Shown: one piece after another, positions 5,413 through 38,961 of the stretch | Layout: every line of letters starts with the position of its first letter | How positions within the stretch are numbered: the first letter of the stretch is position 1 | NCBI GenBank assembly: GCA_016191165.1 | Contig: JACPPF010000067.1 | Span: 1 to 39,146, forward strand | Reading direction: 5' to 3' | Length of the DNA stretch: 39,146 nt | Source: Planctomycetota bacterium | GTDB lineage: Bacteria; Planctomycetota; Planctomycetia; Gemmatales; Gemmataceae | Translations under genes and position numbers: made by a program | The notes under the pieces: generated by a model | Seen by the model: the letters and a program-made list of their open reading frames with translations, nothing else | Told to the model about the DNA's origin: nothing | The model's database searches: none

Positions 5413-8322
5413 CTATCGCCAGCGCACGACGGACAGGAGGTTGTAATAGTCATCGGTCCAGACGTACCTCTCGCTGCTCGCAACGGTTTCCCAGTAGGGA
5501 TCGCTGCGGTTTTTGCGACCGATGGCTGTCTTGTAGGCCCGCAGGAAATCGCTGTCGCCGGTCAGGTGAGCCAGGTCCTTCGAGGTGCGCGCCACCATGA
5601 CCCATTCTGACGTATAGTGTCCTTCGCTGTGGTTGTCATTGATGTCGTGCCCGCGCAGGTGGGCGAAGCCCAGGTCCGCGGAGACGGCCGACACAACCAG
5701 GGGAAGGTCGACAAAGCGATTGGACGTATGAACGCACAGGATGCCGTCCTTGGTCAGTTTGGAGAAGTACATCTTGAACGCCTCGCGCGTCAGGAGGTGC
5801 GCGGGGATGGCGTCGGAGGAGAAGGCGTCCACGACCATCATGTGATAGAAGTTGTTCGGCCCGCCGCCGCGATCGGTTTCATCGGTCCTGGGCTGGCCGT
5901 TGTTGTCCAGGTAATGGTTCTCATAGGGCAGGTTCATGCGCAGGCGGGCGTCCCCCATGAGGACCTGGACAGCGGCGCCGCGCTCAAGCGCCTGCTCGAG
6001 GTAATTGAAGTAGACGGTGCGACTGCTTTTCTGCTTGGCCTTGCCGTATTCCAGCCAGTTGCCAAACTCGCGCGTCGGCGCCGCGAACGACAGGCGCTGG
6101 ACCTGGTTGTCGATCTCGTAGAAATGCACGTGCTGATAGGGCCGGCCGTAGGATGCCATCGTGCCGGTTCCCAGGCCAATAGTTGCGATCGGCGGCTCCG
6201 ACCAGGCGGTCACGAGTTCCGTCAGCGGCAGGTTGCCGACCCCCACATCGGCCAGGGCGTTGAAAATCAGCGATGCGGGCAAACGCGCGTCGGCGTGAAA
6301 CGTGTTCGGGTCGCCCTTGGACCAGTTGAATTTTTCCATCACGCGCCCGGCCGGCCCTTCGCGATGGTAGTACGTGGTGGCCAGTCGGCTCCGGTCCTTG
6401 GCCGGATCGCCGCGATCGGCCTTCTTTTCCGGGACGAGGTAATTCATGCCGTGGTCGATATGGCCGTGAATGAGCTGGCGATACGGACCAAAGCCGCGGT
6501 TCATTTGCTTGACACTGATGGCGCCGAAGTAGCTGCGGCTGGATTTTAGCGTGACTTCGGATTCCGCCTGCGCGACAAAGATGACGTGCAACAGCAGCAC
6601 GGCGCCGATGCCCAGGCCGAAACGAAACGGCCGGGAAAAGCAGGCCATGCAAAGAACCAGTGGGATGCCATACTGGAAAAGGTTGCGCACGATGTGCGAC
6701 ATATCGCGCGGCAGGACCAGACCGGCGATCAGCGTGAGGGCGAGGATCACGCCAGGCCAAACGAAATCCAGGTTGCGCACGAGCGATTCGTTGGCCGTCA
6801 CCCCGATCGAAACCGGCGCGTGATGATGTTTGCCGCCCTTTTGCTTGGTGACCGGCGCTTCGGGCTGGCTTTCAAACAAGCTTGCCAAAAAGTTATCCCC
6901 CAGGCCGATATCGAACATCTTGGGCCGGGCCAGCGCCGCGGCGAAGATCGCCAGCGGGAACTCCCAGTACTTCGGGAAGATGACCGGCGCGATCAGGGCG
7001 TTGAACATGCCGCCAACCATGCCGCCGACCGACATCCAGAGGTAGAACTCGGTAAGGAATCGCGTGCTGGGGCGATCCTTAGCCAATTCGCCGTGACACA
7101 CCATCGTCGTGGTAAAAAAGCCCATGACGTGGGCGAAGATCGCCACCTTCAATAGGCTCGGGTCTGAGGCCAGATTCCACACGTCCGACATGATCATGCC
7201 GGGGAGAAAGAGCACCTGGGCGTAGAGGAAAACAACGTGCGGCGTCTCGGTCCAGACCACCGGCCAGCGCGCGAACACCAGGATGAATGAGCCAAGGTAA
7301 AGGATCAGCGGAATGAGCCAGAACATCGGCTGCGGCGATAAGTCAGTCGTGATGTGGGTCGTGATGCCTAGCATCAGGCTCGACGGAATGGCGGCCAGCA
7401 TCACCCAGCGGAAGCGCCGAGCGAAGTTCATGTCATCATTGGCAACCGCAACCGAAGGCGCCGGCGCATGGGAGCGGCCCGCGCCATGGGCGCCCTTGCC
7501 GTGCTTGCCTGGCGCGCCGGCCTTGACACTGGTGGCGGCGGGCGCCGTCGGCGCGGCCGCCGGCGCGCCCGCGGCGATGCCGGTCTGGGCGTCCGGCGCG
7601 CTCGCCTGCGCCGCGGCCGGGGCGGGCTCGGGTTTCGGCTCCGGCGCGGGCGCCGCCTTCGGCAGGAAGGCGTCCTTCGCATTCCACACCATACCGGCGC
7701 AAACCGCCATGAACGCGATCAACGTGATGTAGCCGATGGCGTAGGTCCACCCCTGATTGGTCAGCGACACGTACGGCTCAATGAACAAGGGGTAGACGAT
7801 CAACGACGACATGCTGCCGAAGTTGCTTGCCCCGTAAAGAAAGTACGGATCGCGTGCCGCCGGATGCCCGGTGTGGACGAACCACTTCTGCAACAGCGGG
7901 GCGGACGTCGCAACTACAAGGAACGGCAACGCCACGTATGCGAAAAGTACCGCCAGCGTCGAGGGAATCGGGTTGGAACCCAGGTCTGGCACGAAACCCC
8001 ACAGGCTGTTGGGATTGGTGATCATCCCGTCCACCATGTCGGCGCCGCCAATCGCAAACGGGAACGGCAATAACAAAGTCAACGGCAGCAAAAGCAGCGC
8101 GCCATGAGCGATCAACTGCTGGCGCAAGGTGAGCCGCGTCGTCGCATTGTGGGTGTAGGCGTAACCCGCCAGCAGCACCATCTGAAAGAACACCATGCAC
8201 GTGTTCCAGACCTGGGGCGTGCCGCCCAGTTTTGGCAGAATGATCTTGCCGACGATCGGCTGAACCAGAAACAAAATGAACGCGCTGACGAACAGCGTGA
8301 GAGCATAAATCGGCAGTGCCAA
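5413..8322 (-). CDS. Fused polytopic membrane / spermidine-synthase-like protein, paralogue 1
   Basis: A 969-residue protein. The N-terminal part has paired membrane helices beginning with LALPIYALTLFVSAFILFLV, the conserved block LPKLGGTPQVWNTCMVFFQ and further helices. An Ala/Pro-rich linker (about residues 215-300) and another membrane block follow. The C-terminal part is a Rossmann methyltransferase-like, spermidine-synthase-type domain: GLGTGTMASYG near residue 712, EID at the end of the next strand, and DAFSSDAIPAHLL near 828. The family is often labelled fused MFS/spermidine synthase; the actual substrate is unknown. I place the start at TTG 8322, preceded by GGAG. An in-frame ATG at 8481 would overlap the upstream paralogue and adds 53 residues without family resemblance. 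Both other paralogues have the same TTG arrangement. Confidence 0.85.
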   Translation of the reverse strand: MALPIYALTLFVSAFILFLVQPIVGKIILPKLGGTPQVWNTCMVFFQMVLLAGYAYTHNATTRLTLRQQLIAHGALLLLPLTLLLPFPFAIGGADMVDGMITNPNSLWGFVPDLGSNPIPSTLAVLFAYVALPFLVVATSAPLLQKWFVHTGHPAARDPYFLYGASNFGSMSSLIVYPLFIEPYVSLTNQGWTYAIGYITLIAFMAVCAGMVWNAKDAFLPKAAPAPEPKPEPAPAAAQASAPDAQTGIAAGAPAAAPTAPAATSVKAGAPGKHGKGAHGAGRSHAPAPSVAVANDDMNFARRFRWVMLAAIPSSLMLGITTHITTDLSPQPMFWLIPLILYLGSFILVFARWPVVWTETPHVVFLYAQVLFLPGMIMSDVWNLASDPSLLKVAIFAHVMGFFTTTMVCHGELAKDRPSTRFLTEFYLWMSVGGMVGGMFNALIAPVIFPKYWEFPLAIFAAALARPKMFDIGLGDNFLASLFESQPEAPVTKQKGGKHHHAPVSIGVTANESLVRNLDFVWPGVILALTLIAGLVLPRDMSHIVRNLFQYGIPLVLCMACFSRPFRFGLGIGAVLLLHVIFVAQAESEVTLKSSRSYFGAISVKQMNRGFGPYRQLIHGHIDHGMNYLVPEKKADRGDPAKDRSRLATTYYHREGPAGRVMEKFNWSKGDPNTFHADARLPASLIFNALADVGVGNLPLTELVTAWSEPPIATIGLGTGTMASYGRPYQHVHFYEIDNQVQRLSFAAPTREFGNWLEYGKAKQKSSRTVYFNYLEQALERGAAVQVLMGDARLRMNLPYENHYLDNNGQPRTDETDRGGGPNNFYHMMVVDAFSSDAIPAHLLTREAFKMYFSKLTKDGILCVHTSNRFVDLPLVVSAVSADLGFAHLRGHDINDNHSEGHYTSEWVMVARTSKDLAHLTGDSDFLRAYKTAIGRKNRSDPYWETVASSERYVWTDDYYNLLSVVRWR

Positions 8323-8352
8323 GGGACGTTCTCCGGAAGCGAGGATGGTTGC

Positions 8353-8370
8353 TTGTTTGTTTGTTTGTTG
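8353..8370. repeat. Short tandem tetranucleotide (TTGT/GTTT) run
   Basis: Four and a half copies of TTGT lie about 30 bases upstream of the chosen TTG start of paralogue 1 (transcribed leftward). This tract is AT-rich compared with its surroundings and is a possible slippage site. The rest of the gap 8323-8446 shows nothing else I can name. Confidence 0.7.
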
Positions 8371-8446
8371 ACAAAAACGCTGGCCGCCCGCGGCGTGGCA
8401 AGCGCCTTGCGGCGCGAATGCCAAACCGCCGGCGGCGTCGCGGACC

Positions 8447-11400
8447 TCAGCGCAAAACGCCGAGGATGTACGAGTAGTCATCGGTCCAAAGTGCGTCGCG
8501 AGCGGTCACCGGCGACTTCACCAGCCGGCGGTTGCGCACTTCGGTGTGGTCGGTATAGGGGTCATACCATTCCACGTTCGCGTTGAGAATTTGCAAACCG
8601 TCCGGCGCCCGGCCGAACTGGGCGTCTTCCTGATCCTTGGCTTGCGGCAGAGGTTTCATGGTGCCGTCCTTGATCAACTTTTCTTTCTCTTTTTCCAGGC
8701 CGCGGACGTAGTTGGTGAAGAAATCTCCTCGGTAAATCATCACGTATTCGGAGGAGAAATGCCCCATGTAGATTTCCTTTTCGCTGCGGTCCTTGCCGAC
8801 GAGGCAGTTGATCTTCGGCCCGCCGGCCGCCTCGGATTTCTTGGATAGCTCCATCGCGATGCGCGCGACCGGCCGGACAAGGTCCATGTGGCGATTGGAA
8901 GTGTGCATGCACAGCACGCCGTCGTCGGCGAGTTTGTCCATGTAGAGCTTGATCGCCTGTTCGGTGCAGAGGTGAATCGGGATCGCGTCGGAGCTGAACG
9001 CGTCGACGTTGATGACCTTGTAATACCGTTCGCGCATCGGCATTTTCGAAACGACGGGATCGAGGTATTTCGCTTTGCCGGTTGAGAAGTCGCTGGCATA
9101 GACTTCCTTGTGCTTTTCCGGAACGAAACTACCGTCCAGGATCGATTTCATGATCTTGGGTTCGCGTTCGAGAGCCTGGCGGGCATCGCCCATGATGACT
9201 TCCAGATTCACGCCGCGGCGGAGCGCGCCTTGGAGGTACTTGAAATAGGCGTCGTTCTTGTCCTCGGGCAACGAGAAGGAGCGGATGACCTCATCGATTT
9301 CATAGTAGGTCATGTGCTGGAACGGCCGGGCATAGGAGACCATGGTGCCGGTGCCCAGGCCGATGGTGGCGAAGGGCGGCTCGGACCAGGTGTGCAGCAC
9401 GGCGCCGAGGGGCCCGGCCATGTTGCCGCCGGGCGACGCCAGCAGGCCGACGATGCCGACCGGCGAACGCACATCGGCATGGAAGCTGTTTTGTTTCCCC
9501 GCCCCCTTCGCTTCGCCCACCTTCTTCGCACCGGCGGGGTTGGTCACCCAGTTATAACGCTCCATGACGATCCCCACCGGGCCGTAGCGGTGGTAGTAGG
9601 TGGTCGCCAACCGGCTAATGTCCTTGCGGAAGGGCTTCAACTCGTCACTTTCGTTGGAATAATAGTTACGGCCGTGGTAGGTCGTGCCGTGCATGAGGTA
9701 GGTGAACGGATAATGGATCTGATAGTTCTTGCCCTTGATGATGGCCGGTTCCACGCGGAAATCGGCGGCCTCCTCTTCATCGTGGGGCACCTCATTATCT
9801 TTTCTCACTTGCAACAGGCCGAAATAGGTGCGCCGCGATTCCAGGATATCGCTGCGATCCCGGCCCGCCATGTAAAGGTGACCCAAAAGGATACCAGCCA
9901 CCGCGAGGGTGATGCGCAAAGGCCGACCGGCAAAAAAGAAGCAGAACGTCGCCGGGATCATGAACACGATCACGATGCCGGTGTTTTGCAACCACCAGTC
10001 GCTCATCGGAATGAACTTCACGAACTTCATGATGCCGATGACCGTCCGCCGCGCATCGATGTTGTTATAGGGCCAAAACTTGATGGTCAGAAAGTAAACC
10101 AGAAACAGGATGAAGAACCCGAGCAGGATATCGAGGAAATAGTTGAACATATAAGTCGTGCGCGGCGGCGTGCGGCCGAACGACTTGGCCATCTCGTCTC
10201 CCTGGCTGCGGGCCCAGTTCTGAATGCCGGGGAAGGCGTTCAGGATCAGCTCGTCGAACCAGCCGCTGGAGACATATTGCGGCCTGACCATGCAGGCGAT
10301 GACGATGGCGATGTAATACTCAAGAACGCCGGACTGAAAAACGATTGGCGCGAACAGAGCGTTGAACGTGCCGCCCAGGGCGCCGCCGACCGACATGAGC
10401 AGGAAATATTCCGTCAGATGGCGCGGGTTGGGGCGGTCGACTGCCAGTTCGCCGTGGCAAGCAAGGGCGGAGGCGAAGAAGCCAATCATCACCATGGAAA
10501 CGGCGACGAACGGGTCGAAGCCTCCCTTCATCACCACCAGGCACAGGATCAGAATGCCGATCGGATGGCCGACGTAAAGCGCGATCTGGTGCGGCGTGTA
10601 ACCCTGGCCGCCAAAGTTCCCGGCGTGAGTGCCGGTCCAGAACTTCATGTAGACAAGAATGAAAGAAAGCAGGTAGAGGGCCAAAGGAATGACCCACACG
10701 AGTGGGAACGGCGACAGGTCGGTCGAGATATAGTTCGTGACGCCCAGCATCAGGCTTGACGGCACCGCTGCCAGCAGAACCCAGCGCACACGGCGAAACC
10801 AGCTCATCTCGGCGGTGGCGCCGGTCAGGATGGGCGGCGCGATTTCGCGCTTGGCGACCGAGGCGGCTTCGTCGGGTTTGACCGGCGCTTTCATGCCTTT
10901 TTTGCGCTGAATGCCGCGCCCACCTGGCGCCGGTCCGGATTTGACCGCCGTGGAAGCTTGCACCGCCGGTGCGGGTTCCGGCGCCGGAGCAACCGCTTCG
11001 GGCACCTCCGCGGGCGGGGGCGGCGCCGCGGCGGCCTCTTCCGCCGCCAGCACCGAATCGGGCGGCGCCAGTTTGTAGATCGTGTAGGCACAGTAGACGA
11101 CCATCCCCGCGAAGGCGATGTAGCCGATCCGCCAGATCGTCGTCTGTTGCGCCAGGAACGTCATCGGCTCGACCAGGGCGGGATAAAGCAGCAGGGACAG
11201 CAAGCTGCCGAGGTTGCTGGCGCCATAAAGAAAATACGGGTCCTTGGCCGACGGATCCCCGCTGTAAGCGAACCAGCGCTGCAACAGCGGCGCGCTTGTG
11301 GAGACCACAAAGAAGGGAATGCCGACCACGATGGCCAGCAGCTTCAAGGCTTCCGGAATCGGATTGCCCTCCGTCGGCGGATCCCATTCGCGAACGGTTT

Positions 11401-11671
11401 CATAGAACGGAAAGGCGAACAATAAAAGAATCGGCACGAACAGGACCGCGCCGTGAAGCATCATCTGCTGGCGCAACTTGAGCCGAGTGCTCACGGAGTG
11501 GGTGTAGGCATACCCAAGCAGGAGCACCGACTGGAAGAACACCATGCATGTGTTCCAGACCTGCGGCGTGCCGCCCAGCTTCGGCAGGATCAACTTGCCG
11601 ATCATCGGTTGAACGAGAAAGAGGAGAAACGCGCTAACGAAAAGCGTGATCGCGAAAATCGGCAGGGCCAA
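8447..11671 (-). CDS. Fused polytopic membrane / spermidine-synthase-like protein, paralogue 2
   Basis: A 1074-residue protein, the longest of three paralogues. The N-terminus (LALPIFAITLFVSAFLLFLV, then LPKLGGTPQVWNTCMVFFQ) is nearly identical to paralogue 1. Membrane helices are interrupted by an Ala/Pro/Glu-rich linker at about residues 220-290. Further helices follow near 300-400 and 530-620. The spermidine-synthase-like domain has GLGTGTMVSYARP near residue 768, EID after it, and VDAFSSDAIPIHL near 890. In true spermidine synthases the first motif is GGGDGG; here it is GLGTGT, so polyamine synthesis should not be assumed. TTG at 11671 is the likely start because GGAGGTGG lies five bases upstream. 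The next paralogue begins 124 bases downstream. Confidence 0.85.
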   Translation of the reverse strand: MALPIFAITLFVSAFLLFLVQPMIGKLILPKLGGTPQVWNTCMVFFQSVLLLGYAYTHSVSTRLKLRQQMMLHGAVLFVPILLLFAFPFYETVREWDPPTEGNPIPEALKLLAIVVGIPFFVVSTSAPLLQRWFAYSGDPSAKDPYFLYGASNLGSLLSLLLYPALVEPMTFLAQQTTIWRIGYIAFAGMVVYCAYTIYKLAPPDSVLAAEEAAAAPPPPAEVPEAVAPAPEPAPAVQASTAVKSGPAPGGRGIQRKKGMKAPVKPDEAASVAKREIAPPILTGATAEMSWFRRVRWVLLAAVPSSLMLGVTNYISTDLSPFPLVWVIPLALYLLSFILVYMKFWTGTHAGNFGGQGYTPHQIALYVGHPIGILILCLVVMKGGFDPFVAVSMVMIGFFASALACHGELAVDRPNPRHLTEYFLLMSVGGALGGTFNALFAPIVFQSGVLEYYIAIVIACMVRPQYVSSGWFDELILNAFPGIQNWARSQGDEMAKSFGRTPPRTTYMFNYFLDILLGFFILFLVYFLTIKFWPYNNIDARRTVIGIMKFVKFIPMSDWWLQNTGIVIVFMIPATFCFFFAGRPLRITLAVAGILLGHLYMAGRDRSDILESRRTYFGLLQVRKDNEVPHDEEEAADFRVEPAIIKGKNYQIHYPFTYLMHGTTYHGRNYYSNESDELKPFRKDISRLATTYYHRYGPVGIVMERYNWVTNPAGAKKVGEAKGAGKQNSFHADVRSPVGIVGLLASPGGNMAGPLGAVLHTWSEPPFATIGLGTGTMVSYARPFQHMTYYEIDEVIRSFSLPEDKNDAYFKYLQGALRRGVNLEVIMGDARQALEREPKIMKSILDGSFVPEKHKEVYASDFSTGKAKYLDPVVSKMPMRERYYKVINVDAFSSDAIPIHLCTEQAIKLYMDKLADDGVLCMHTSNRHMDLVRPVARIAMELSKKSEAAGGPKINCLVGKDRSEKEIYMGHFSSEYVMIYRGDFFTNYVRGLEKEKEKLIKDGTMKPLPQAKDQEDAQFGRAPDGLQILNANVEWYDPYTDHTEVRNRRLVKSPVTARDALWTDDYSYILGVLR

Positions 11672-11901
11672 GGGCCACCTCCAGGTTGACTGCAAGAAAA
11701 CGACATCGTCTCTCCGCGGGGTAAAAAGCGCCGACCGTGACGCTTGCGGAGACCAAACGCAATTTCAGTTCGTCATTCTAGGAATTTCGATACCCGGCGG
11801 GCAGCGGTGATTTCAGGGAATCCTGGGCCACACATCCCGATTGCGCCGCGCGCCCACGGAAACTCGCGCCCCGTGCTCGCCCGGGAGGAGCGGTTTTTGG
11901 C
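11672..11901. other. Intergenic gap between paralogue 2 and the membrane sigma-factor gene
   Basis: This 230-base gap holds the leader of paralogue 2 (transcribed leftward) and follows the 3' end of the sigma-factor gene. I see no convincing hairpin terminator, no gene and no copy of the repeat families found elsewhere. A promoter for paralogue 2 should lie here, but no clear -35/-10 or -24/-12 pair can be picked by eye. Confidence 0.4.
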
Positions 11902-13530
11902 CTAATCCTTCGCTCGCAAAGCGTTTCGGGCGGCAATGGCCAGAGCGCGGCTGTGTTCGGAGTCGGCGGACATCTGGACGGATACGATCATACCCACGCG
12001 CAGATCGGCCAGGGTTCGGGTTTTGCCGTCCACCAGGACATGAGCGTCGGTTGCCACGCAAAAACCGTCCGCAATGCCGTCCAGCGAAAGCGTACGCTTG
12101 TCCACGACAACCGCCTTGACCCGGCCGACCACCTTGGGGCCAGCGCTGACGCCCACGACCTTCTTTTTCCCCGGCGGAACCTGCAACACCACCTTCATCT
12201 TCTTTTTCAACTCGCCGTATTTGGCCTTCTTGCCATTGATGTAGACCCAGGCGCCCCTGGCCAGGACAAAGGTTTCCGCCACCGGCTCGCCGTTTTTCAC
12301 GTCGGTATGAAGCGTCACGGAATCCTCGTCAATCGCCTGAACGACGCCGACGATCGGCCGGCCGACGATTTCGACGAGCACGGCGTGGCGCTCGCCGGCC
12401 TGGTTGCGTTCTAGCTCCAGGCGCAGAGTCATGCCGGCATGCAAATCGGCGAGCGTTCCTTCCTTGTCCCCCACCATGATCCGGGCATCTGGGCCGACGC
12501 GCACATCGAGGATTTCGCTGCCGTGCCCGGCGTCGGAGATTCGTGTGGCCTGAATCGTGCGCCTGGCAAGATCGACGTGTTCCACCAGGCATTCCTTGAC
12601 TTCCTCGGGCTTGTCCTTACGGGCTTCTGGCTTGTCAGGCACAAACGGGACGTTCTCCGTGCGTCGGGAACGATCGGCCAAAACGGAAGGAAGGAAGGAA
12701 CCCACCACCAGCCCCAGAAGGGCCAACGCCATGAGCGCGCCGGCGGCGATCTGGGTCCGGGTCCAGGATAACGAGGCGGCGACGGCGTCGGTCAACGCGC
12801 CGACCGAACCGGCAATCGGCTTCCCCGCGGCGACTCGCACCGCAGCCTGGGCCGTGGATGCCGTCAGGGCGAGTGGGACTTCCTCGGGAGTCCGATCCGA
12901 AAGCAGGTTGGCCAGGGCCCCGGCTGAAATGATCAGGTTCTTGCGCGCAAGCCGTTTGGCCAGCATGACCCGGGCCCGCGCCAGCCGGCTGGCGACGGTG
13001 CCTTCGGGCACGTGCAAGGCGCGGGCGACCTCCTTGCGAGTTTGCCCCTCCAGGTCGCAAGCGACCAGCACGAAGCGGTACTTGTCGGGCAGCCGGCTCA
13101 ACTCCTGATCCAGAAGGGGTTTCAGGTCCTGCCAATCGCTCTCCGGTTCAGGGCGAGGCATTTCGCACCTCTTTCTCTCGCGGTTGCGCCGCCGCGCTGT
13201 CAGCTTTTTGGATTCCAGGGCCGTCCGATACGCCACGCCGTAAAGCCAGTTGCCAACCATTTGGCGCGGCTGGATCGTTTCCGCCTTGCGGACCAGCACG
13301 AGAAAGACGGCCTGGAAGCAATCCTCCGCATCGTGTCGATTGTCGAGAACCCGTCGGCACACGCCAAGCACCATCGAGCCGTGCCGCCGCACCAGTTCGG
13401 CAAACGCGAGATCGTCATGGGTGTAGATGAAGCGGTCCAGGAGTTGGCCGTCGCTGGTCTCGTCCTCGGCGCGCGCCATCGGCGCGGGGGCGAGGAGAGG
13501 TAAACCCTCGGAAAATGTGATCGTTGCCAT
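11902..13530 (-). CDS. ECF RNA polymerase sigma factor with transmembrane C-terminal extension
   Basis: A 542-residue protein. Sigma region 2 spans about residues 30-110 (FAELVRRHGSMVLGVCRRVL, then DAEDCFQAVFLVL). Region 4 spans about 135-195 (LDQELSRLPDKYRFVLVACDLEG, then EVARALHVPEGTVASRLARAR), a complete DNA-binding helix-turn-helix. A hydrophobic segment at about 258-282 is a probable membrane helix. The remaining 260 residues would lie outside the cytoplasm and contain three related units ending in a GK...LADL..GM-type pattern (near 345, 430 and 500). Planctomycete ECF proteins with long C-terminal extensions are known; the extension presumably replaces a separate anti-sigma factor. The ATG start has AAGGAC directly upstream. 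The gene sits between paralogues 2 and 3 of the membrane/spermidine-synthase-like family. Confidence 0.85.
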   Translation of the reverse strand: MATITFSEGLPLLAPAPMARAEDETSDGQLLDRFIYTHDDLAFAELVRRHGSMVLGVCRRVLDNRHDAEDCFQAVFLVLVRKAETIQPRQMVGNWLYGVAYRTALESKKLTARRRNRERKRCEMPRPEPESDWQDLKPLLDQELSRLPDKYRFVLVACDLEGQTRKEVARALHVPEGTVASRLARARVMLAKRLARKNLIISAGALANLLSDRTPEEVPLALTASTAQAAVRVAAGKPIAGSVGALTDAVAASLSWTRTQIAAGALMALALLGLVVGSFLPSVLADRSRRTENVPFVPDKPEARKDKPEEVKECLVEHVDLARRTIQATRISDAGHGSEILDVRVGPDARIMVGDKEGTLADLHAGMTLRLELERNQAGERHAVLVEIVGRPIVGVVQAIDEDSVTLHTDVKNGEPVAETFVLARGAWVYINGKKAKYGELKKKMKVVLQVPPGKKKVVGVSAGPKVVGRVKAVVVDKRTLSLDGIADGFCVATDAHVLVDGKTRTLADLRVGMIVSVQMSADSEHSRALAIAARNALRAKD

Positions 13531-13630
13531 GTCCTTAGCCTTTTTTGGCCCGCAGGTTATCGTCCCTTGGAATCATTGGACGCCATGGGGCCGATTGTTC
13601 CACAAATTTACACCTGACGTGTCTAGCCGT

Positions 13631-16462
13631 TCATTTTCGCCACGGGTTCAGCCAGGGCATGACCTTGGGGTTGAGGAGGTTGGAATACCCGTCGGTCCAG
13701 GCGGGACCGTCGAGAGGGCGCACCTCCTGCCAGCGCTCGTCCTCGATTTCCGTGCGATCGTCATTCCGAACGACAATGCCTTTCCAGGATAGCCGAACCC
13801 GCGTGGATTCCAGCCGTTCGCGGATGGGTCGGCCGCCATTGCGATAGGCCCCCTTGTCGATCTTGCGCTGGAGGACGACCCAGTCCGCGGAAAAGCGATC
13901 CGGATGATCGCTGGGGTACGTGAAATCAGGGCAGTAAAGGCAATCCAGATCGAGATCGCGCGCGATGGCCGACAGAACGTTCTCAATACGCACGAATTTA
14001 TTCGTCGTGTTGAAGACCAGCACGCCCCCCTCGGCCAACTTGTCCAGATACATCTTCACCGCGTCTGAGGTGAGCAGATGCACGGGAATCGCATCCGAGC
14101 TAAAGGCGTCGAGGACGATGACGTGATAGTATTTCTCCGGGGCTTCCCTTTTCATGACGAGCCGACCGTCACCCAGTTTCACGCTGACGTGAGCCCAGCG
14201 CTCGGTCGCATCCTGCACGTAGTAGAAGGTCGGGTCCGGCACCTTGTAATCGGCTGCCCGGCGATCGTGCCAGGGCGGCAGATAATCCGGCGGAACCGAC
14301 AGGTTTTTCACCAGCGGATCGATTTCATAAATATCGACGCGCTGAAAGGGCTTGGCATAACAGGCCAGGATGCCGGTTCCCAAACCCATGACGGCGTAGG
14401 GCGGTTCCGACTGCGTGTTGGCCAGCATCGTGAAGGTCGCCTGCTGGCCGGAGGCTAACCCAAACATCGACGCCGGCATGCGAATGTCCGAGACGCCGTT
14501 CATGTTAGTGACCGCCGACACTGGCTGCCCTTTGGTCCAGCACAGCTTGTAGAAGACCTCGGCAATGCCGTTGCGCTCATAAAAATAGGTGATCGGCTCG
14601 CGGCGTTTGCGCAGGTTCATCTCCGGGGTTTCTTCCGTTTCGATGCCGAGCTCGTTTTCGTACTTGTACCGGACGACCTGGCTGCCATGATTGATACCGC
14701 CGTGAATCAACGTGCGGTAGGCCTTCCATTCATGCGGGACCGGTTCGTCCTCGAAATGTTGCGGCATCTGCGACCAGCGTCCCTCGTGTTCTTGCACGCG
14801 CAACAACCCGAAGAAACCGCGGCCTTCATAAAGGTACGCCTCATTGCTGCGATCGTAGATGCCGATGGCCAACATCAAGGCGCCCACGGCCAGCCCGAAA
14901 CGCACGGGCCGCAGGGACAAACCGAGGATGGCGATGACCATGCCTGCCATGACCCAGTTCTTGCCCCGGGCGATATTGGGCATGGCGTCGAAGGCTTGAC
15001 TCAGGTAGTAGGCGCCGATGCCAATGGCAATGGGCAGGCCGAAATCGAGAGCGTAGCCGAGCCGTGTCGAGCGTTCGGCGGTTGAATCGCCGGGGAAAAG
15101 TGTCTTGCCGAGATCGACGAGATTGGGCCGGAGGAGGCAGGCGAACGCCATGGCGATCGGGTATTCCCACAGGCCGTGCTGAAAGACGATGGGTGCGAAC
15201 AGGGCGTTGAACAACCCGCCGAGAACGCCGCCCAGCGACATCCAGAAATAGAATTCGGTCAGGTGTTTGGTGCTGGGCCGATCCTTGGCCAGTTCGCCAT
15301 GACACATCAGGGCCGTGGTAAAGAACGCGGCCAGGTGCAGGAAAAAAGTGACGACGGTGTCCCATCCCGCCAGCCACGAGATATTATCGACCGTCAGATT
15401 GCCGATCATTTTCAGGACCAGGAACAGCAAGATGCACGGTTGCAGAAACGACACGACCGTGTGCGGCTGTCCCGTCCAGACCGTCGGCCAGCGCGCGAAG
15501 ACCAGGATGAACGTGAGAAGGTAAAGCGCCAGCGGAATGATCCAGAAAAACGCGACGGCGGCAATGTCCGTGGTGAGGTAGGTCGTGGCGCCCAGCATCA
15601 AGCTGGTCGGCGCCGCGGCCAGGCCGATCCAGCGCAGGCGGCGCAGCAGCGTGATGTCGTCGTTCACCTGCGCCGCATTGGAGACCGGCCTCGGAGCGGG
15701 TGTCTTTGGGGCGACGGTCTCGATCCGGCCGCCGCGGCGTTTGGGGGCGGACGCGGTCACGGCGGTTGCCTGTTCCGCCGGCGCGATCGGTTGCGGTGTT
15801 GGCGCGGGCGTTGCGCTGGCACTCGCATCCGGCGCGACTTGCTTCGCCAGCGATTGCCATACGATCACCGCGCAGCCGACGACGAGAGCGACGAATATCG
15901 CATAAAGGAACGTCCAGAAATGCACCTGGGTTCGCCAGGTGGCGTCCCCCGCCGGCGCCGTCACTTGCAGCAATGGCTCGATCACGGTCGGGTAAAGCGC
16001 CAGTCCCAACATGCTGCCGAAATTGCTGGCGCCGTATAGAAAGTATGGATCCTTGGCCGACTCATGCCCGGTGTGGAAGAACCACTTTTGCAAGAGTGGC
16101 GCGGTCGTCGAGACCAGAAAGAACGGCAAGCCAACCATCACGGTCAGCTTGAGCAAAACCTCGAAAATCGGATTGGCGTCCGTCGGTGGCTCCCAGTTTC
16201 CCACCGAGAACGGCAGAACGACAAAGGGCAGAAAGAGCAGCACTCCCTGGATCAAGACCTGCCGGCGCGTCGATTGCGTCGTCGTCAGCAGGTGGGTATA
16301 GCCGTAGCCCACCAGCAGCACACCCTGGAAAAAGACCATGCACGTGTTCCACACGGCCGGGGTGCCGCCCAGGTGCGGCAAGATCATCTTGCCGATCATC
16401 GGCTGCACGAGAAAAAGCAGCGCCGCACTGACAAAAAGCGACACACCAAAATACGCAAGCAA
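13631..16462 (-). CDS. Fused polytopic membrane / spermidine-synthase-like protein, paralogue 3
   Basis: A 943-residue protein related to paralogues 1 and 2 but more diverged. The N-terminal helices (LLAYFGVSLFVSAALLFLV) and LPHLGGTPAVWNTCMVFFQ correspond to the conserved block in the others. An Ala/Pro-rich linker sits at about residues 210-270, with further helices at about 285-390 and 455-530. The C-terminal domain has VMGLGTGILACYAKP near 689, EID after it, and LDAFSSDAIPVHLL near 785. I place the start at TTG 16462, which has GGAGGTGGCC immediately upstream, matching paralogue 2. The longer frame from 16729 would run back into the carboxyltransferase gene. The membrane sigma-factor gene starts 100 bases downstream, so both may share a transcript. 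Confidence 0.85.
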   Translation of the reverse strand: MLAYFGVSLFVSAALLFLVQPMIGKMILPHLGGTPAVWNTCMVFFQGVLLVGYGYTHLLTTTQSTRRQVLIQGVLLFLPFVVLPFSVGNWEPPTDANPIFEVLLKLTVMVGLPFFLVSTTAPLLQKWFFHTGHESAKDPYFLYGASNFGSMLGLALYPTVIEPLLQVTAPAGDATWRTQVHFWTFLYAIFVALVVGCAVIVWQSLAKQVAPDASASATPAPTPQPIAPAEQATAVTASAPKRRGGRIETVAPKTPAPRPVSNAAQVNDDITLLRRLRWIGLAAAPTSLMLGATTYLTTDIAAVAFFWIIPLALYLLTFILVFARWPTVWTGQPHTVVSFLQPCILLFLVLKMIGNLTVDNISWLAGWDTVVTFFLHLAAFFTTALMCHGELAKDRPSTKHLTEFYFWMSLGGVLGGLFNALFAPIVFQHGLWEYPIAMAFACLLRPNLVDLGKTLFPGDSTAERSTRLGYALDFGLPIAIGIGAYYLSQAFDAMPNIARGKNWVMAGMVIAILGLSLRPVRFGLAVGALMLAIGIYDRSNEAYLYEGRGFFGLLRVQEHEGRWSQMPQHFEDEPVPHEWKAYRTLIHGGINHGSQVVRYKYENELGIETEETPEMNLRKRREPITYFYERNGIAEVFYKLCWTKGQPVSAVTNMNGVSDIRMPASMFGLASGQQATFTMLANTQSEPPYAVMGLGTGILACYAKPFQRVDIYEIDPLVKNLSVPPDYLPPWHDRRAADYKVPDPTFYYVQDATERWAHVSVKLGDGRLVMKREAPEKYYHVIVLDAFSSDAIPVHLLTSDAVKMYLDKLAEGGVLVFNTTNKFVRIENVLSAIARDLDLDCLYCPDFTYPSDHPDRFSADWVVLQRKIDKGAYRNGGRPIRERLESTRVRLSWKGIVVRNDDRTEIEDERWQEVRPLDGPAWTDGYSNLLNPKVMPWLNPWRK

Positions 16463-26160: not shown

Positions 26161-28131
26161 GTGGACGCACACACGCTCGAACTTCTGGAGTTTCACAAGA
26201 TCCGCGAACTCGTCGCCGACTACGCCTTTTGTTCCCTGGGTCGCGATCTCGCCCTGGCAGCGGAGCCGAGCGTGAACACGGACGGTATTCGCGCGGAGTT
26301 GGAACTGGTTGGCGAAATGGTGGAAGTGCTGGGTCAGGGCCAATCGCCGCCTTTCGTCGGGTTGAAAGATGTGCGCCTGCTGGCCCGTCGCGCAGCCATC
26401 GGGGCCATGCTGTCCCCTGAGCAACTGCTCGACCTCGCCGGCGTTCTTACCTGCACCGGTCATATGTACCGCTTTCGGATGCGCTTGAGCGAATTGCAAC
26501 CGCGCCTGATCACGCTGCTGGCGCCGGTCGAGGATCTCGGCCTGGTTGCAAAAGCGATCAGCGGCTGCATCGACACGCGCGGCCACGTGCTCGACATGGC
26601 GAGCCCTGACCTGGCGCATGTTCGTCAGCAGATTGCCGGGCTAGACGAACGAGTGCAAACTCGCATTCGCCACTTGCTGCGCGACCCCAGAGTGCGCGAG
26701 ATCCTTCGCTACCCCAATGCGACCGTGAGTGGAGACCACTACGTTTTGCCGGTCGCGGTCAATCATCGCCATCGGCTCGCCGGCGTAATTCATCGCACAA
26801 GCGGCACGGGCGAAACCGTGTTCATCGAACCGGCGGAGGTCGCGCATCTAAGCGCCGAGCGCGTCGTCCTCAAGAGCGACGAGGACCGCGAGGTCAAGAA
26901 AATCCTGCGCAAGCTCACCGCGGACGTTGGCCGGGTCGCTCGGCCGCTGGGCAATGCCATCGAAGCGATGGCCAAGCTCGACTACGTCACCGCCAAGGCC
27001 CGGTACGCGCGTGACTTCAATCTCACGTGCCCCGACGTCAACACCGAAGGCATGCTCTGGCTGCGCATGGCACGCCACCCACTTTTGGAACACCTATTCC
27101 GCCAGGCGGCTCGCGCTCCAGCGCTCGCAGACGACATCCAGGCGCCCGTGCCCAATGCGGCGGGCCCGAACCCGCAAGCGGCCGAGCGGCAGGTTGTCCC
27201 CATCGACGTCCACCTCGGCCAGCCGTTCAATCTGCTCATCATCACCGGGCCCAACACCGGCGGAAAAACCGTCACCCTGAAGACGACGGGCCTGCTTTGC
27301 CTGATGGCCCAAACGGGTATGCACATCCCGGCAGGGCAGGGGAGTTGCGTCCCGGTTTTTTCACAAATCCTCGCCGATATCGGCGACGAGCAAAGCCTCG
27401 AGCAATCGCTGAGCACCTTCAGCTCGCACATCTCACGCATCGCCCACATACTGAAAAATTCCGATGCGAAAAGTCTCGTATTGCTCGACGAACTCGGCGC
27501 CGGCACCGACCCGGTCGAGGGGGCTGCCCTGGGACGAGCCATCCTCGATCAACTCGATCAAATTGGCTGCCGGGCCATGGTGACGACCCATCTGGGCGAC
27601 CTGAAGACGTATGCATTCAACAACGAGCGTGCCGAAAACGCCGCGGTCGAATTTGACATCGAGACCTTGCAGCCCACCTACCGCCTCCACATCGGCCAGT
27701 TCGGCATGTCCAACGCGCTCAAAATCGCCCGGCGGTTGAAGTTGCCGCGCGATCTGCTCAAACGTGCTCACCGCTATCTAAAGCGCCGCCAAAAACGCGC
27801 GCCGGAGTTGATCCAGCTTCAACAAAAACGCGAGGAAGCCGAGAAGGCGCGGACCGAGGCGATGCAAGCGCAACTGGAAGCCCAGACGCAGCGCGAAGAA
27901 TATACCCAAAAAGTCGCCGATCTCGAACGGCAACAACGCGAAGCGGAACGGATGCGCGCCTGGCGCGCCGCTCTGAAAACCGGTGACAGCGTGTGGGTAC
28001 CGAAATATGACAAGGTTGGCCGGATCATCCGCGTTGATGCCCGGCGCGGCAGCGCGATCGTGGCGCTGGGGTTAGGCCAATGGGAAGTAATGTTCGACGA
28101 AATATTCCCGGAGAAAAAGCCCGACGTTTAG
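26161..28131 (+). CDS. mutS2: MutS2-family ATPase lacking the Smr domain
   Basis: A 656-residue MutS homologue of the MutS2 branch, known for DNA-junction or stalled-ribosome processing rather than mismatch repair. The N-terminal core and lever domain span about 1-330. The ATPase has LLIITGPNTGGKTVTLK (Walker A near 363-370), Walker B LVLLDELGAGTD near 439-450 and GAALGRAILDQL after it. A long Arg/Glu/Gln-rich coiled coil lies at about 545-605, and a small beta-rich KOW-like end (SVWVPKYDKVGRIIRV) follows. The protein stops there. Family members commonly continue to about 780 residues with a C-terminal Smr nuclease domain, which is absent. The stop TAG is provided by a GTTTAGC palindromic element shared with the end of cbiM. 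Start GTG 26161 has GGAAAGG upstream. Confidence 0.92.
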   Translation: MDAHTLELLEFHKIRELVADYAFCSLGRDLALAAEPSVNTDGIRAELELVGEMVEVLGQGQSPPFVGLKDVRLLARRAAIGAMLSPEQLLDLAGVLTCTGHMYRFRMRLSELQPRLITLLAPVEDLGLVAKAISGCIDTRGHVLDMASPDLAHVRQQIAGLDERVQTRIRHLLRDPRVREILRYPNATVSGDHYVLPVAVNHRHRLAGVIHRTSGTGETVFIEPAEVAHLSAERVVLKSDEDREVKKILRKLTADVGRVARPLGNAIEAMAKLDYVTAKARYARDFNLTCPDVNTEGMLWLRMARHPLLEHLFRQAARAPALADDIQAPVPNAAGPNPQAAERQVVPIDVHLGQPFNLLIITGPNTGGKTVTLKTTGLLCLMAQTGMHIPAGQGSCVPVFSQILADIGDEQSLEQSLSTFSSHISRIAHILKNSDAKSLVLLDELGAGTDPVEGAALGRAILDQLDQIGCRAMVTTHLGDLKTYAFNNERAENAAVEFDIETLQPTYRLHIGQFGMSNALKIARRLKLPRDLLKRAHRYLKRRQKRAPELIQLQQKREEAEKARTEAMQAQLEAQTQREEYTQKVADLERQQREAERMRAWRAALKTGDSVWVPKYDKVGRIIRVDARRGSAIVALGLGQWEVMFDEIFPEKKPDV

Positions 28132-29843: not shown

Positions 29844-29922
29844 CCCAGGGGTGAGCGCAGCAAACCCCAGGGATCGGGTTTGCGCCATCCCAGGGGTTCG
29901 CTGCGCTCACCCCTGGACTTCA
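29844..29922. repeat. Inverted pair of GCTGCGCTCACCCCTGGG-type repeats
   Basis: One copy (29844-29873, shortened) and one full copy (29889-29922) face each other across about 15 bases. The full copy contains the uvrA stop codon TGA (29920-29922). The pair occupies most of the uvrA-DUF4198 gap, could fold into a long hairpin and may end uvrA transcription. Confidence 0.85.
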
Positions 29923-32900
29923 GCGAGTGAACATCTCACGAAAGCCCGCCAAATGTTGTTGCAAGATTTCACGCAGTGCCTGCGCGTGAACATGATTGTC
30001 GTGCTGAAAATGCAACACGAGCGCGTCGCCCTCGGAGGTGGCCTGAAGCTGCGGGTCGAGCCCAAATCTCTCCACCTGATTCAGATTGAACTGCCCCTTC
30101 TTGCCCAGGAATCGGCATTGCAGCGCCTCGTTGTCCTTGGTTCGCAGCATCGCCCAGGCTCGCGATACGCCGGGCACGCTGACGCTGATGTGAGCGCGAT
30201 TGTCCCACGCAATCTCAAGGCCCGGCTCAACCTTGCGAAACACCTCCAGCACGCGCGGCAGGATCGCGCGATCCCAGTACATCTTGCGGCCCGGCGGAAA
30301 ACCCTTCTCGCCGAGATGCCATTTTTCGCCATTGACCTTCCAGGGCATCACGTCCTCGGGTTTGGCGTTCATGCGTTGAAGCGTGTTGCCAAACGAGGCG
30401 GCGGCCTTGTGAAGGAACTCGTCGAAAGCAGGCGTTTCGATTTCGTCGAGCTTGTGAACGAGCATCCAGACTTCCTGCCAGGGCCCCTTGCGATTGGCGA
30501 CGTGAACGCGTGCTTCGTTGGAGTAGACCTCGATGCCGGGCGTATCGTTGAGCGTCGGGAGGCCGAGTCTGCGATTGAGATCTTCCTGCTTGAACGTATT
30601 CTTGGCGACGCGAAAGATGAGGCGGACGAGCCATTCCATGTTGGTGTGAGCGTGAAAGAACCAGCCGAGTGACTTGGAAGTGGCTGCAATTTCGACGGTG
30701 GACTGGTGCTTCCAGTTGGTGGGCGCGAAATCGCCGAGGGTGTGGATTTTTTCGTCGATCCAGGCAAGGACGTTGCCGTCCCAGCGGCAGGGCTTTCCGT
30801 GATGGGATAGGCGGTTCTTGGTATGCCAGAGCTTGCCGTCGGTCTGCCAGGGCATGGCGGCGTCCTTGCCGACTTTTTCGAGATCGACATCGCCGTCGCG
30901 TTTTTTGCCAGCGGCGAGTGGATCAAAGCGAGGCCGCTCGGCGTGCGGTCCGGCGGCGAGCGCGTCGGCGACAAACTTGGCGGTATGAGAAAGGTTCGCC
31001 GCTTGCGGCCTGGCGCTCGCTTGCCCGCTCGCGGACGCCAGGCTGTAAGCGGCGATTTCTTCCGGCGTTCCCTCGGCGACGACGCGCCCGCCTGCATCGC
31101 CGGCCTCGGGGCCCATGTCGATGATCCAGTCGGCTGTCTTGATCACGTCCAGATTGTGTTCGACCACGATGACCGTATTGCCCAGATCGACCAGGCGATT
31201 GAGCACCTCCAGCAACTTGCGAATGTCGTCGAAGTGCAATCCCGTCGTCGGCTCATCCAGGATGTAGACGGTCTTGCCCGTGTTCGGCCGCGCCAGCTCC
31301 GCCGCCAGCTTGACGCGCTGCGCCTCCCCGCCCGAGAGCGTTGGCGCCGCCTGCCCCAGCGCCAGGTAATCGAGCCCGACGTCGGCGAGCGTCTGAAGGA
31401 TTTGCCGAATCTTCGGGATGTTGTTGAACAGCTCCAGCGCCTCACCGATGCGTATCGCCAAAACGTCGGCGATGCTCTTGCCCTTGTATTGCACGGCCAG
31501 CGTTTCGGGGTTATAGCGTTTCCCGGCACAGGTGTCGCATTCGACCCAGACATCGGGAAGGAAGTGCATCTCGATTTTTTTCTGGCCATTCCCCTCGCAC
31601 GCCTCGCAGCGGCCGCCGGGCTTGTTGAAGCTGAATCGCTTGGGCTGCCAGCCGCGCACGCGAGCTTCGGGAAGCTGGGCGAAAAGCTGGCGGATGAGAT
31701 CGAAGACGCCGGTGTAGGTCGCTGGGTTGGAGCTGGGCGAATTGCCAAGCGGATCCTGATCGACGTTGATGACCTTGTCGATCAAATCCAGGCCGACGAT
31801 TTCATCATGGGCGCCGGCGACCAGGCTGGCACGATGAAGCTTGCGAGCCAGGGCGTTGTAGAGGATTTCATGGACGAGCGACGACTTGCCCGACCCGCTG
31901 ACGCCCGTAACGGCGATGAACGCGCCGAGTGGGAAGGCAACGTCGATGTGCTTGAGGTTGTTCTGGCGGGCGCCTTTCACAAGCAAAAAGGAAAAAGGAA
32001 AAAGGGAAAAGTCTGAATTCAATTCGTTTTTTCCCTTTTCCTTTTTACTTTTTACCGGAATTCGGCGATTCGTCGGCACCGGGATCGCTTTCTTGCCGGA
32101 CAAATACTGCCCGGTCATCGATGCCTTGGCTTTCAAAACTTGCCGCGGCGTTCCCGATGCGGTGATCTCGCCGCCCAGATCGCCCGCGCCGGGGCCGAAG
32201 TCGAGGAGATGGTCGGCAGCCGCGATGACTTCGCGATCGTGTTCGACCAGGATAAGCGTGTTGCCCAGGTCGCGCAGATTCTGCAAGGCTTTGAGGAGCC
32301 GACGGTTGTCGCGCGGGTGCAGCCCAATGGTCGGCTCGTCAAGAACGTATAGCACGCCGGTCAGCCCGCTACCGATCTGGCTGGCCAGGCGAATGCGCTG
32401 CGATTCCCCGCCCGAAAGCGTCGGCGTCGATCGGCCCAGCGTGACGTAGTCGAGGCCGACATCGACCAGGAATTGAATGCGATTTTGTATTTCCCGCAAC
32501 ACCTCCCCGGCAATCTGGCGCTGGTCTTTTGTCAAATCGAGTCTCTTGAAAAAATCAAATGTCCGCCCCAGGGGCCAAGAACAAATCTCACCGATCGTTT
32601 TTCCCTGGAATCGGCAGGCGGCCGCGTAATCGCGCAGGCGCGAGCCGGCACAGGTGGTGCAGGGCACGTCGCTGACAAGGGAGTCGAGCCGCTGACGAAA
32701 AAACGCGCTCAAGCGCGATGCTTCGCCCAGGGCGGGCATGACGCCCTTGTACTGAAAGCTCCAGGTTTTGGAAGCGTTAGGGAGGGGTTCCTGGGCTCGG
32801 CCCCGTCGCTTGCGCTCCGGGCTGGTATAGGATTTGATCCAGGCGTCGCCGGTCCCGTAGAGCACCAGCCGTTGATGCTGCGGGTCGAGTTGTCCCCACG

Positions 32901-35900
32901 GTACATCGAGCGAGAAGCCACCGTGCCGGGCCAGCGCTTCCGCGAATGTCGTAAATGGCTGCTCCGGGGTCAAGGTCGGCCACTCCGTCAGGGCGCCTTT
33001 TCGTAGCGTCAAGGCGGGATCGCGAATCAACACCGCGGGGTTGGCGCCCTTCTGAACGCCGAGCCCTTCGCACGCTGGGCACCAGCCGAGACCGCTGTTG
33101 AAGGAAAAATGATGCGGATTGAGCGGCTCGAAGCTTCGTCCGCATTGATCGCACGCGAAGTGCTGGCTGTAGCGATCCACCTTCCATTTCGGCTCCTCAC
33201 GCGTGTCATCCACATGCGCGACGTGCATCACCCCCTTGCCAAGCGCCAGCGCCGTTTCCACTGCCTCGGCGAAACGGCCACGCTGATTCTTGCGTACGAT
33301 CACGCGATCGACGACCACCTCGATCGCATGTTTGCGGCGATGGTCGATTTCGGGGGGCGACTCGACGTTGAACGATTTGCCGTCCACGCGCATCCGCACG
33401 AATCCGCTGCGGCGAATCTCCTCGAAGACCGCTTCATACTTCTCCTGCCCGCGGCGTTCGATGGGCGCCATCAAGTACAGCTTGGAGCCTTCCGGCAGGT
33501 TGAGGATTTTCTCGATGATCTCGTCGGACGACTGCGTGCCGATCGCCACGTCGCACTTCGGACAATGCGGCTGCCCAAGGCGGGCAAACAGGATACGAAG
33601 ATAATCGTATACCTCGGTGACGGTACCCACGGTCGAGCGCGGGCTCTTGCTGGTCGATTGTTGCTCGATGGCGATGGCTGGCGACAGGCCGGTGACGTGC
33701 TCGACCTTCGGCTTCTGCACCTGGCCGAGGAACTGGCGCGCGTACGACGACAGCGACTCGACATAGCGGCGCTGCCCCTCGGCGAAGATCGTATCCATCG
33801 CCAGGGACGATTTTCCCGACCCGCTGGGGCCACAGAAAACGGTCATCTGATCGCGAGGCATCGCGGCGGTGACGTTTTTCAGATTGTGTTGCTGGGCGCC
33901 GTGAACTGTCAAATGCGTCAGGGGCTGTTCGGTTTTTCGTTTAGGCGCGGGCCTTCGGCCCGCGCGCGCGCTCGCCAAAGGCGAGCGGCTAAACAACGCA
34001 TGCAGCGCCTGGCCGGTGTAGGACGCGGCACATTTTGCGACGGTTTCGGGCGTCCCGGTGCAAACCACATTACCGCCGCCGGCGCCGCCTTCCGGGCCGA
34101 GGTCGATCACCCAGTCCGCGGTCTTGATGACGTCGAGATTGTGCTCGATGACGACAACCGAGTTGCCCGCGTCAGCGAAACCATGCAACACTTGCAAGAG
34201 CTTGCTGATGTCGTCAAAGTGCAGTCCGGTCGTTGGTTCATCGAGGATGTAAAGCGTCTTGCCGGTCGCGCGGCGGCACAGTTCGCGGGCGAGCTTGATG
34301 CGCTGCGCCTCGCCGCCGGAAAGGGTAGGGGAGGGCTGCCCGAGTTTGACGTAATCGAGACCGACGTCGTGCAGCGTTTGCAGCATGTCGCGAATCTTGG
34401 GGATGTTCGCGAAATGCTCGAGCGCTTCCTGCACGTCCATCTCGAGCACGTCGAATATGTTTTTGTCCTTGAAGCGAATTTGCAACGTCTCGCGATTGAA
34501 GCGATGATTCTCGCACACGGGGCATTTCACCCAGACATCGGCGAGGAAATCCATCGGCAGGCGATTCGACCCGTTGCCCTCGCACGATTCACAGCGGCCG
34601 CCCGGCTTGTTGAAGCTGAACCGTCCGGCCTTGTAGCCGCGAATCTTCGCCTCGGACATGAGCGCGAAAAGCTCGCGGATCTGATCGAACACCTTGATGT
34701 AGGTCGCTGGGTTAGAGCGCGGCGTGCGTCCGATGGGGGATTGATCGATGTCGATCACTTTGTCGATTTGGTCGAGGCCGGAGATAAGGTCATGGCTCCC
34801 GACTTGATGTGGCGTTGAGTCTTCATCGTCGGAGTCATCGTCCTCGGTCCCAGGGACTCGCTGCGCTCGCCCCTGCGCTTCGCGGGCGCCCTCCCGAAGG
34901 ATATCGTTGATGAGCGACGACTTCCCCGACCCGCTAACGCCGGTGACGCAAACGACCATGCCCAGCGGGATGTCCACGCGGATATTCTTGAGGTTGTTGT
35001 GTCTGGCGCCGACGATGGTGATGGCGCGCTCGCCTCGCTTGCGGCGATTCTTGGGAATGGCGATTTCCTTTTTTCCCGCGAGGTATTGGCCGGTGATGCT
35101 GTCAGGCTTGTTGACGATGTCGTCATAGGCGCCGGCCGCGACGACGTGACCGCCGCGCACGCCGGGGCCGGGGCCGAAGTCGACCAGAAAATCGGCGGCA
35201 CGCATCGTGTCCTCGTCGTGTTCGACGACGAGGACCGTATTGCCCAGATCGCGCAGAGTTTCGAGGCTCTGGAGGAGGCGTTCGTTGTCGCGCGGATGCA
35301 GGCCGATGGAGGGTTCATCGAGAATGTAAAGCACGCCGACCAGGCCCGAGCCGATTTGGCCCGCGAGGCGAATACGTTGCGCCTCGCCTCCGGAGAGAGT
35401 AGGGGCGGTGCGATCCAGGGAGAGATAGTGCAACCCGACGTTGAGGAGGAAGGCGACGCGGGCGCGGATTTCTTTCAGGACCTCCGCGGCGATGTGTTGC
35501 TGAACGTGGTCGAGCGCTTCTTCCAGACCAGCGCGGGGCGCGTGCGACGGGGAGTCGCATCTTGAACCCGTGGCTTGCGCTCCGGGCTGGTTGGATCCAA
35601 GCCACGCCGCCAGATCGCCAATGGGCATTGCCTCGACGTCAATCAACGTCTTGCCGGCAACCCGCACCGCCCGGGCTTGTGCGTTGAGGCGATTTCCTTG
35701 ACAGGTTGGGCACCGCATCACGCGCATATATTTTTCAAGCTGCAAGCGGCGTGGCCCGGCTGCCGTCTTTTTGAAGCTGCTCAACAACTGCGGGATGACT
35801 CCCTCCCAGGGGCCGCCGTGTTTCCACACCGCGCCGCCGCGCATCTTCCACTCGAAGGTGATGTGCCGGTCGCCCGTGCCGTGAAGGAGAGCGTTTTGCT

Positions 35901-37020: not shown

Positions 37021-37067
37021 ATCAAACCTGTTTGGCCGCCCGCCTCCGGCGAGCTCGGACGCCGCAC

Positions 37068-37100
37068 TTGTACGATTGTGCAGTTTCAGATAATGTACAA
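37068..37100 (+). promoter_or_regulatory. Possible promoter or dyad operator upstream of the ECF sigma gene
   Basis: TTGTAC (37068-37073) and GTACAA (37095-37100) form an inverted repeat. The same segment also reads as TTGTAC, 17 bases, TAATGT, which resembles a -35/-10 pair for the rightward sigma gene starting at 37177. It lies in the 156-base divergent region shared with uvrA. This is a by-eye call. Confidence 0.3.
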
Positions 37101-37176
37101 CCCCAGGCAGGAAAGAAAGCACGCGAATTCGGAACCAAATCAACCCAACCCACGTCCAATTGGGCAGTAGGACATC

Positions 37177-37749: not shown

Positions 37750-37803
37750 CCGCCGGCGTTTTTCGCTCGTCCGCCCCGCGGCAAACATGATGTGGTAACC
37801 GAC

Positions 37804-38925: not shown

Positions 38926-38938
38926 CAACCTACCCCTC

Positions 38939-38961
38939 GTTCCCAAACTCTGTTTGGGAAC
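38939..38961. terminator. Perfect hairpin after the anti-sigma gene
   Basis: GTTCCCAAAC and GTTTGGGAAC form a perfect ten-base stem with a TCT loop, 14 bases after the stop codon. No T-run follows, so it is either a non-canonical terminator, an mRNA 3' end protector or another REP-type element. Confidence 0.6.

Follow-up and report, generated by a model that had tools for sequence, protein, structure and literature searches.

Results

Genes A, B and C and their genomic context

The window, 39,146 nucleotides long, makes up an entire contig of a planctomycete genome (Gemmataceae; 7.2 Mb, 95% complete). It carries three open reading frames on the minus strand, gene A (13631..16462), gene B (8447..11671) and gene C (5413..8322), whose products of 943, 1074 and 969 amino acids fit the length of 940-1070 residues given for them in the original prediction. 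All three genes start with TTG, which is preceded by a ribosome-binding site in A and B (GGAGGTGGCCT/C-TTG) and by a weaker one in C (CGGAGAACGTCCC-TTG). Identity to A is 41% for B and 44% for C, and the homology is full-length (a search with C matched A with E 1.6e-136 and B with E 1e-118). The genes had been described as three in tandem. This is correct for B and C, which lie next to each other with 124 bp between them, but A is separated from B by a gene for an ECF sigma factor (11902..13530, minus strand; TIGR02937, Pfam Sigma70_r2/r4). The sigma factor has a long C-terminal extension (~340 residues), and a Pfam search of this protein gave no match beyond the sigma regions.

The order A-sigma-B-C recurs in relatives, with the sigma gene at the same position in L048, L052, L061 and L065, whereas A, B and C are contiguous in L054 and the sigma gene is absent there; the duplications thus seem to be older than the sigma insertion. 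We considered the co-located sigma factor as a part of the system and discarded it, as it occurs in one group of close relatives and is missing in L054. The adjacency of B and C is kept in L048, L054, L056, L060, L061 and L065, with A close by in several cases. In the genome studied here, four further loci encode relatives, two of them at full length (C3, C26) and two as the enzyme domain only (C63, C183).

Elsewhere in the window, a UvrA-type protein of 3008 residues (29920-38946, minus strand), about three times the length of an ordinary UvrA, matches two UvrA interaction domains, two UvrA DNA-binding domains and several ABC-type ATPase regions. A MutS2-like protein with MutS domain V is encoded at 26161-28131 (plus strand).

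Domain architecture and fold

AlphaFold2 models were obtained for A (pLDDT 86, pTM 0.87) and C (pLDDT 82, pTM 0.85). Both consist of a 12-helix MFS fold, three more membrane helices and a domain with the spermidine-synthase fold, so that the description of these proteins as membrane-bound and spermidine-synthase-like is upheld by the predicted models. In A, the MFS-like domain comprises residues 1-450 (15113..16462, minus strand, as for all features below) and is closest to SLC37A4 (VIA-align Z 17.0, 347 aligned residues, rmsd 5.0), NorA (Z 16.8) and SotB (Z 16.8). The corresponding domain of C (residues 1-470; 6913..8322) matches G6PT1 (Z 19.9), SPNS2 (Z 19.3) and PepTSt (Z 19.2). Altogether, solved 12-helix transporters were aligned to the two predicted models with Z 15-20 over 313-370 residues. 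The Ala/Pro-rich linker, reported previously at the same place in all three proteins, is indeed found there and connects helices 6 and 7 in the transporter-like half; in A it forms the central loop of the MFS domain (residues 210-271; 15650..15835) and is modelled with low confidence (pLDDT 41-70). The three extra membrane helices (in A residues 467-540, 14843..15064, with helices 467-493, 495-513 and 519-540; in C residues 512-588, 6559..6789, with helices 512-536, 543-560 and 565-588) are conserved throughout the family. They are followed by the SAM-type domain (A, residues 543-943, 13634..14836; C, residues 591-969, 5416..6552), whose best structural match is 3gjy (Z 20.2, 245 aligned residues, rmsd 3.1 for A; Z 19.2, 248 aligned residues, rmsd 3.2 for C), with other spermidine synthases, e.g., 1xj5 and 4yuv, scoring lower (Z 16-17) against the predicted models. 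By alignment, B has the architecture of A and the longest loops of the three, and alignment columns place its spermidine-synthase-fold domain at 8450..9838.

Attempts to identify the membrane half by sequence were abandoned: a PDB sequence search with it gave no match, Pfam searches with 39 membrane domains of the family returned no general MFS model and a single weak match to PTR2, and only structure comparison succeeded. The fold matches listed were filled by MFS proteins and spermidine synthases, and the absence of other methyltransferases, including those resembling the fungal enzyme NHMT (see below), among them is uninformative either way. Across phyla, mean column identity is 35% in the membrane half and 21% in the enzyme half, as calculated from alignments with different sequence numbers. 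The membrane half is thus the more conserved one and probably does more than anchor the protein.

Conserved motifs and the polyamine question

The sequences GGTP(Q/A)VWNTCMVFFQ, GLGTG and DAFSSDAIP, on which the original prediction was based, are present in A, B and C. In A, motif I (GLGTG) occupies residues 693-697 (14372..14386), and DAFSSDAIP, the counterpart of the spermidine synthase sequence DSSDPIGP, occupies residues 785-793 (14084..14110). Spermidine synthases require Asp or Glu in the motif GxG(D/E)G for binding of decarboxylated S-adenosylmethionine (PMC10349129, PMC11107197). The proposed departure from GGGDGG is real: in the profile alignment its Asp is set on the Thr of GLGTG (Thr696 in A), the residue being Thr in B and C as well, and none of 96 family sequences has Asp or Glu at this fourth position, i.e., the acid is missing family-wide. 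The other motifs of the fold are well preserved. Among 81 sequences from many phyla, Gly693, Gly695, Gly697, Gly764, Asp765, Asp785, Asp790, Pro793 and His795 are invariant and Glu713 and Asp715 are conserved in at least 90%; EID(P), GDxR (GDARL) and DAFSSD are nearly unchanged across phyla in the fused members. This conservation suggests that the domain is likely to be an active SAM-type enzyme.

No AdoMet decarboxylase (SpeD) was detected with PF02675 in this 95% complete genome or in six congeners, control genomes being positive. In 149 planctomycete genomes, occurrence of the family was not linked to that of AdoMet decarboxylase (7/36 versus 27/113, Fisher p = 0.65). Neither PF01564 nor TIGR00417 matches A, B or C, and PF01564 weakly matches 8 of 48 enzyme domains of the family. 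A role as a true synthase of spermidine or another polyamine, coupled to polyamine transport, could be argued from the fold, from this weak profile similarity and from the name that the databases use at present, yet the acid is missing in all members and the decarboxylase neither was found in the genome nor co-occurs with the family. We consider such a role highly improbable and dropped the ordinary spermidine synthase as a candidate. Judging from their motifs, A, B and C are not aminopropyltransferases, which bears out the doubt expressed in the original prediction.

Distribution and phylogeny of the family

A single scan revealed 543 places that encode relatives, and the best 77 of these 543 span at least 10 bacterial phyla, being found in Planctomycetota, Acidobacteriota, Nitrospirota, Cyanobacteriota, Melainabacteria, Pseudomonadota, Myxococcota, Thermodesulfobacteriota, Verrucomicrobiota, Omnitrophota and Armatimonadota. 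A typical member has ~740 residues. The architecture is the same as that of NCBIfam NF037959 ('fused MFS/spermidine synthase'), which is matched by all 48 enzyme domains searched (48/48). With 35.9, 21.8 and 23.2 bits, A, B and C stay below its cut-off of 40 bits, whereas the five typical members tested all pass, one exceeding the cut-off by far; shorter homologues score 57.7-70.7 bits. A, B and C nevertheless share one alignment and one tree with members above the cut-off, but they are longer, have long linkers and carry an insert ahead of motif I. The family is therefore already known, by annotation alone, and A, B and C are its divergent Gemmataceae members; our literature search found no paper on fused MFS/spermidine synthases and no experimentally tested member.

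In the phylogenetic tree (FastTree), A, B and C form three old orthogroups in Gemmataceae and close relatives (local supports of the groups 99-100), B and C being sisters. Linkers and loops do differ in length, as originally noted, but the divergence of substrates suggested on this basis is not supported by our data; the three are conserved orthogroups with the same catalytic motifs. One could imagine instead that A, B and C are not enzymes for three substrates and form a hetero-oligomer. The conserved neighbourhood of B and C with A near them in several relatives and the pairs of members in other planctomycetes and in Oscillatoria would fit such a complex, while the complete catalytic motifs in all three proteins and the other numbers of members in many genomes do not. 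On balance we regard a hetero-oligomer as rather unlikely; it would be compatible with the explanation favoured below and is judged separately from it.

Neighbouring genes gave no hint at the function, as they differ between lineages: a comparison across phyla showed no shared neighbours, only lineage-specific ones. In L074, L099 and L116 (delta-proteobacterial-type), a short member is followed by a gene resembling that for a CcsA/HemX-type membrane protein and by hemA, and in another Gemmataceae subgroup (L071, L077, L084, L091) the neighbours resemble genes for an ATP-grasp protein and methenyl-tetrahydromethanopterin cyclohydrolase (both judged by eye).

Stand-alone copies of the enzyme domain

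Nine stand-alone copies of the enzyme domain were inspected. As judged by eye, six of them begin with a signal-peptide-like sequence (C63, L128, L132, L167, L168, L171) and three with a single N-terminal membrane anchor (C183, L130, L131). Motif I or DAFSSDAIP is lost in every copy whose full sequence was inspected; L167 and L168 were covered at their N-termini only. One gene on contig C63 (L009, 5669-8068) encodes a single chain with a signal-peptide-like start and a pair of decayed spermidine-synthase-like domains, which share 53% identity with each other. The stand-alone copies included in the tree fall on the B/C side within the Gemmataceae clade. L171 belongs to another genus and lacks the insert of this clade, and looks like a separate event. 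As the secreted copies are decayed, they tell where the fold can live and not where the active enzyme works.

Membrane topology

Both termini of an MFS domain are cytoplasmic. Three more crossings after such a domain would place the enzyme domain outside the cytoplasmic membrane. Charge counts over 81 sequences are partly in line with this: the loop between helices 14 and 15 (RPxRFGL) has a net charge of +2.0 and is positive in 96% of the sequences, the loop between TM2 and TM3 (+2.4) is positive in all of them, and the loops expected outside are mostly negative. The loops expected inside between TM4 and TM5 and between TM6 and TM7 (the linker) are not net positive and fit an outside C-terminus poorly. 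A simple hydrophobicity-based topology predictor, which among 19 E. coli controls found the correct side of the C-terminus for 18 under the best setting and for 16 and 13 under two further ones, put the C-terminus outside in 52-74 of the 81 proteins, depending on the setting, if the globular domain was masked. Without masking it was put inside in 51-56 of 81, a result that we set aside as unreliable because β-strands of the enzyme domain were called as helices. A weakness of the outside assignment is helix 12, which the model of A shows with 11 residues: should this short helix fail to span the membrane, the enzyme domain would lie inside.

Another, distantly related type of fused MFS/spermidine synthase is encoded in the same genome (L174 on contig C69); its motif, VGCGAGVTAG, is also without the acid. 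For this type, the predictor found 13 helices, an odd number, at two of three settings and favoured an outside C-terminus at all three. Given the odd helix count, the outside placement may extend to a wider group.

Several lines agree here, each of them weak individually, and we regard the extracytoplasmic location of the enzyme domain as probable. With the domain inside, the protein would be a fusion of a cytoplasmic synthase with an exporter, which would methylate or otherwise alkylate a small molecule and release the product through the MFS module. SAM is cytoplasmic, the joining of an enzyme to its own exporter has a simple logic, and the unmasked prediction or a non-spanning helix 12 would permit this orientation. 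The opposite orientation is favoured by the MFS fold together with three conserved helices and by the positively charged RPxRFGL loop that precedes the last of them, and the stand-alone copies of the enzyme domain bear export signals. We take such a fusion to be rather unlikely.

Discussion

Our preferred, still tentative, explanation is that A, B and C are membrane transferases with an extracytoplasmic SAM-type domain, which probably methylates a target in the envelope and is served by the protein's own MFS module. The enzyme domain would be situated outside the cytoplasmic membrane and would use S-adenosylmethionine or a close analogue as donor to modify, probably methylate, some component of the cell envelope; the MFS module would export the donor, or else carry either the spent donor or the acceptor through the membrane, and transport and transfer would be coupled in one polypeptide. 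The presence of free SAM outside the bacterial cytoplasm is not an established fact. The outside placement could be explained without periplasmic SAM if the SAM-fold domain were a non-catalytic sensor or receptor for a polyamine or a nucleoside-like compound, by which uptake through the MFS module would be gated or fed; the decayed stand-alone copies, which could be binding proteins, would suit this idea. In the fused members, though, DAFSSD, GDARL and EIDP are nearly unchanged, as expected for a catalyst, and they are lost in the decayed copies, which makes a mere receptor distinctly improbable.

Within the transferase explanation, the methyl chemistry is suggested by the lost acid and by the precedent of NHMT, and the supply of the donor by the MFS module is a guess by analogy. 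SLC33A1, which carries acetyl-CoA across a membrane to transferases, is a functional analogy only. Methyl transfer combined with donor delivery is for us a doubtful proposition. The broadest version of it, a widespread bacterial family whose MFS-fold module would export SAM to its own extracytoplasmic methyltransferase for envelope modification, and which multiplied in Gemmataceae, where it also yielded secreted dead copies, appears unlikely.

Databases call the members of this family spermidine synthases, and genome-based predictions of polyamine synthesis will be wrong wherever the family occurs. The probable extracytoplasmic topology was unexpected, and the family has a side branch of copies that are secreted and apparently dead. 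An outside location of the enzyme domain would pose the question of how a SAM-type transferase operates in a place where SAM is not expected, and of whether its donor comes from the fused transporter. If the proposed function is true, these proteins would be the methyl-group counterpart of membrane systems that bring acyl groups to transferases on the outside.

A, B and C combine features of several known systems. With MFS transporters (G6PT1, SPNS2, PepT, NorA, SLC33A1), A and C share the 12-helix fold and only 6-13% identity. With SpeE (PF01564), they share the fold (Z 20 with 3gjy and 16-17 with plant and protozoan enzymes), the motif order and the D..SSD motif, but they lack Asp/Glu in GxG(D/E)G, no SpeD was detected in their genome, and they are membrane-bound and probably extracytoplasmic. 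The Corynebacterium glutamicum protein 3gjy, the best structural match to the enzyme domain in both models, likewise has a motif without the acid (GGGACT), but its solved chain of 317 residues has no membrane domain, and the record names it only as 'probable spermidine synthase'. The fungal NHMT, a membrane protein whose methyltransferase domain is spermidine-synthase-like, is also without this acid and acts on secreted LPMOs, which it methylates once their signal peptide has been cleaved (PMC10349129). In both systems, a membrane domain is followed by a spermidine-synthase-like SAM domain in which the acid is replaced, by Ile in NHMT (PMC10349129) and by Thr in A, B and C, and the SAM motifs are kept in A, B and C (GLGTG; EID, GDxR, DAFSSD). 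NHMT, however, is restricted to filamentous fungi and has seven helices of a unique kind, whereas A and C have 15 helices with an MFS fold.
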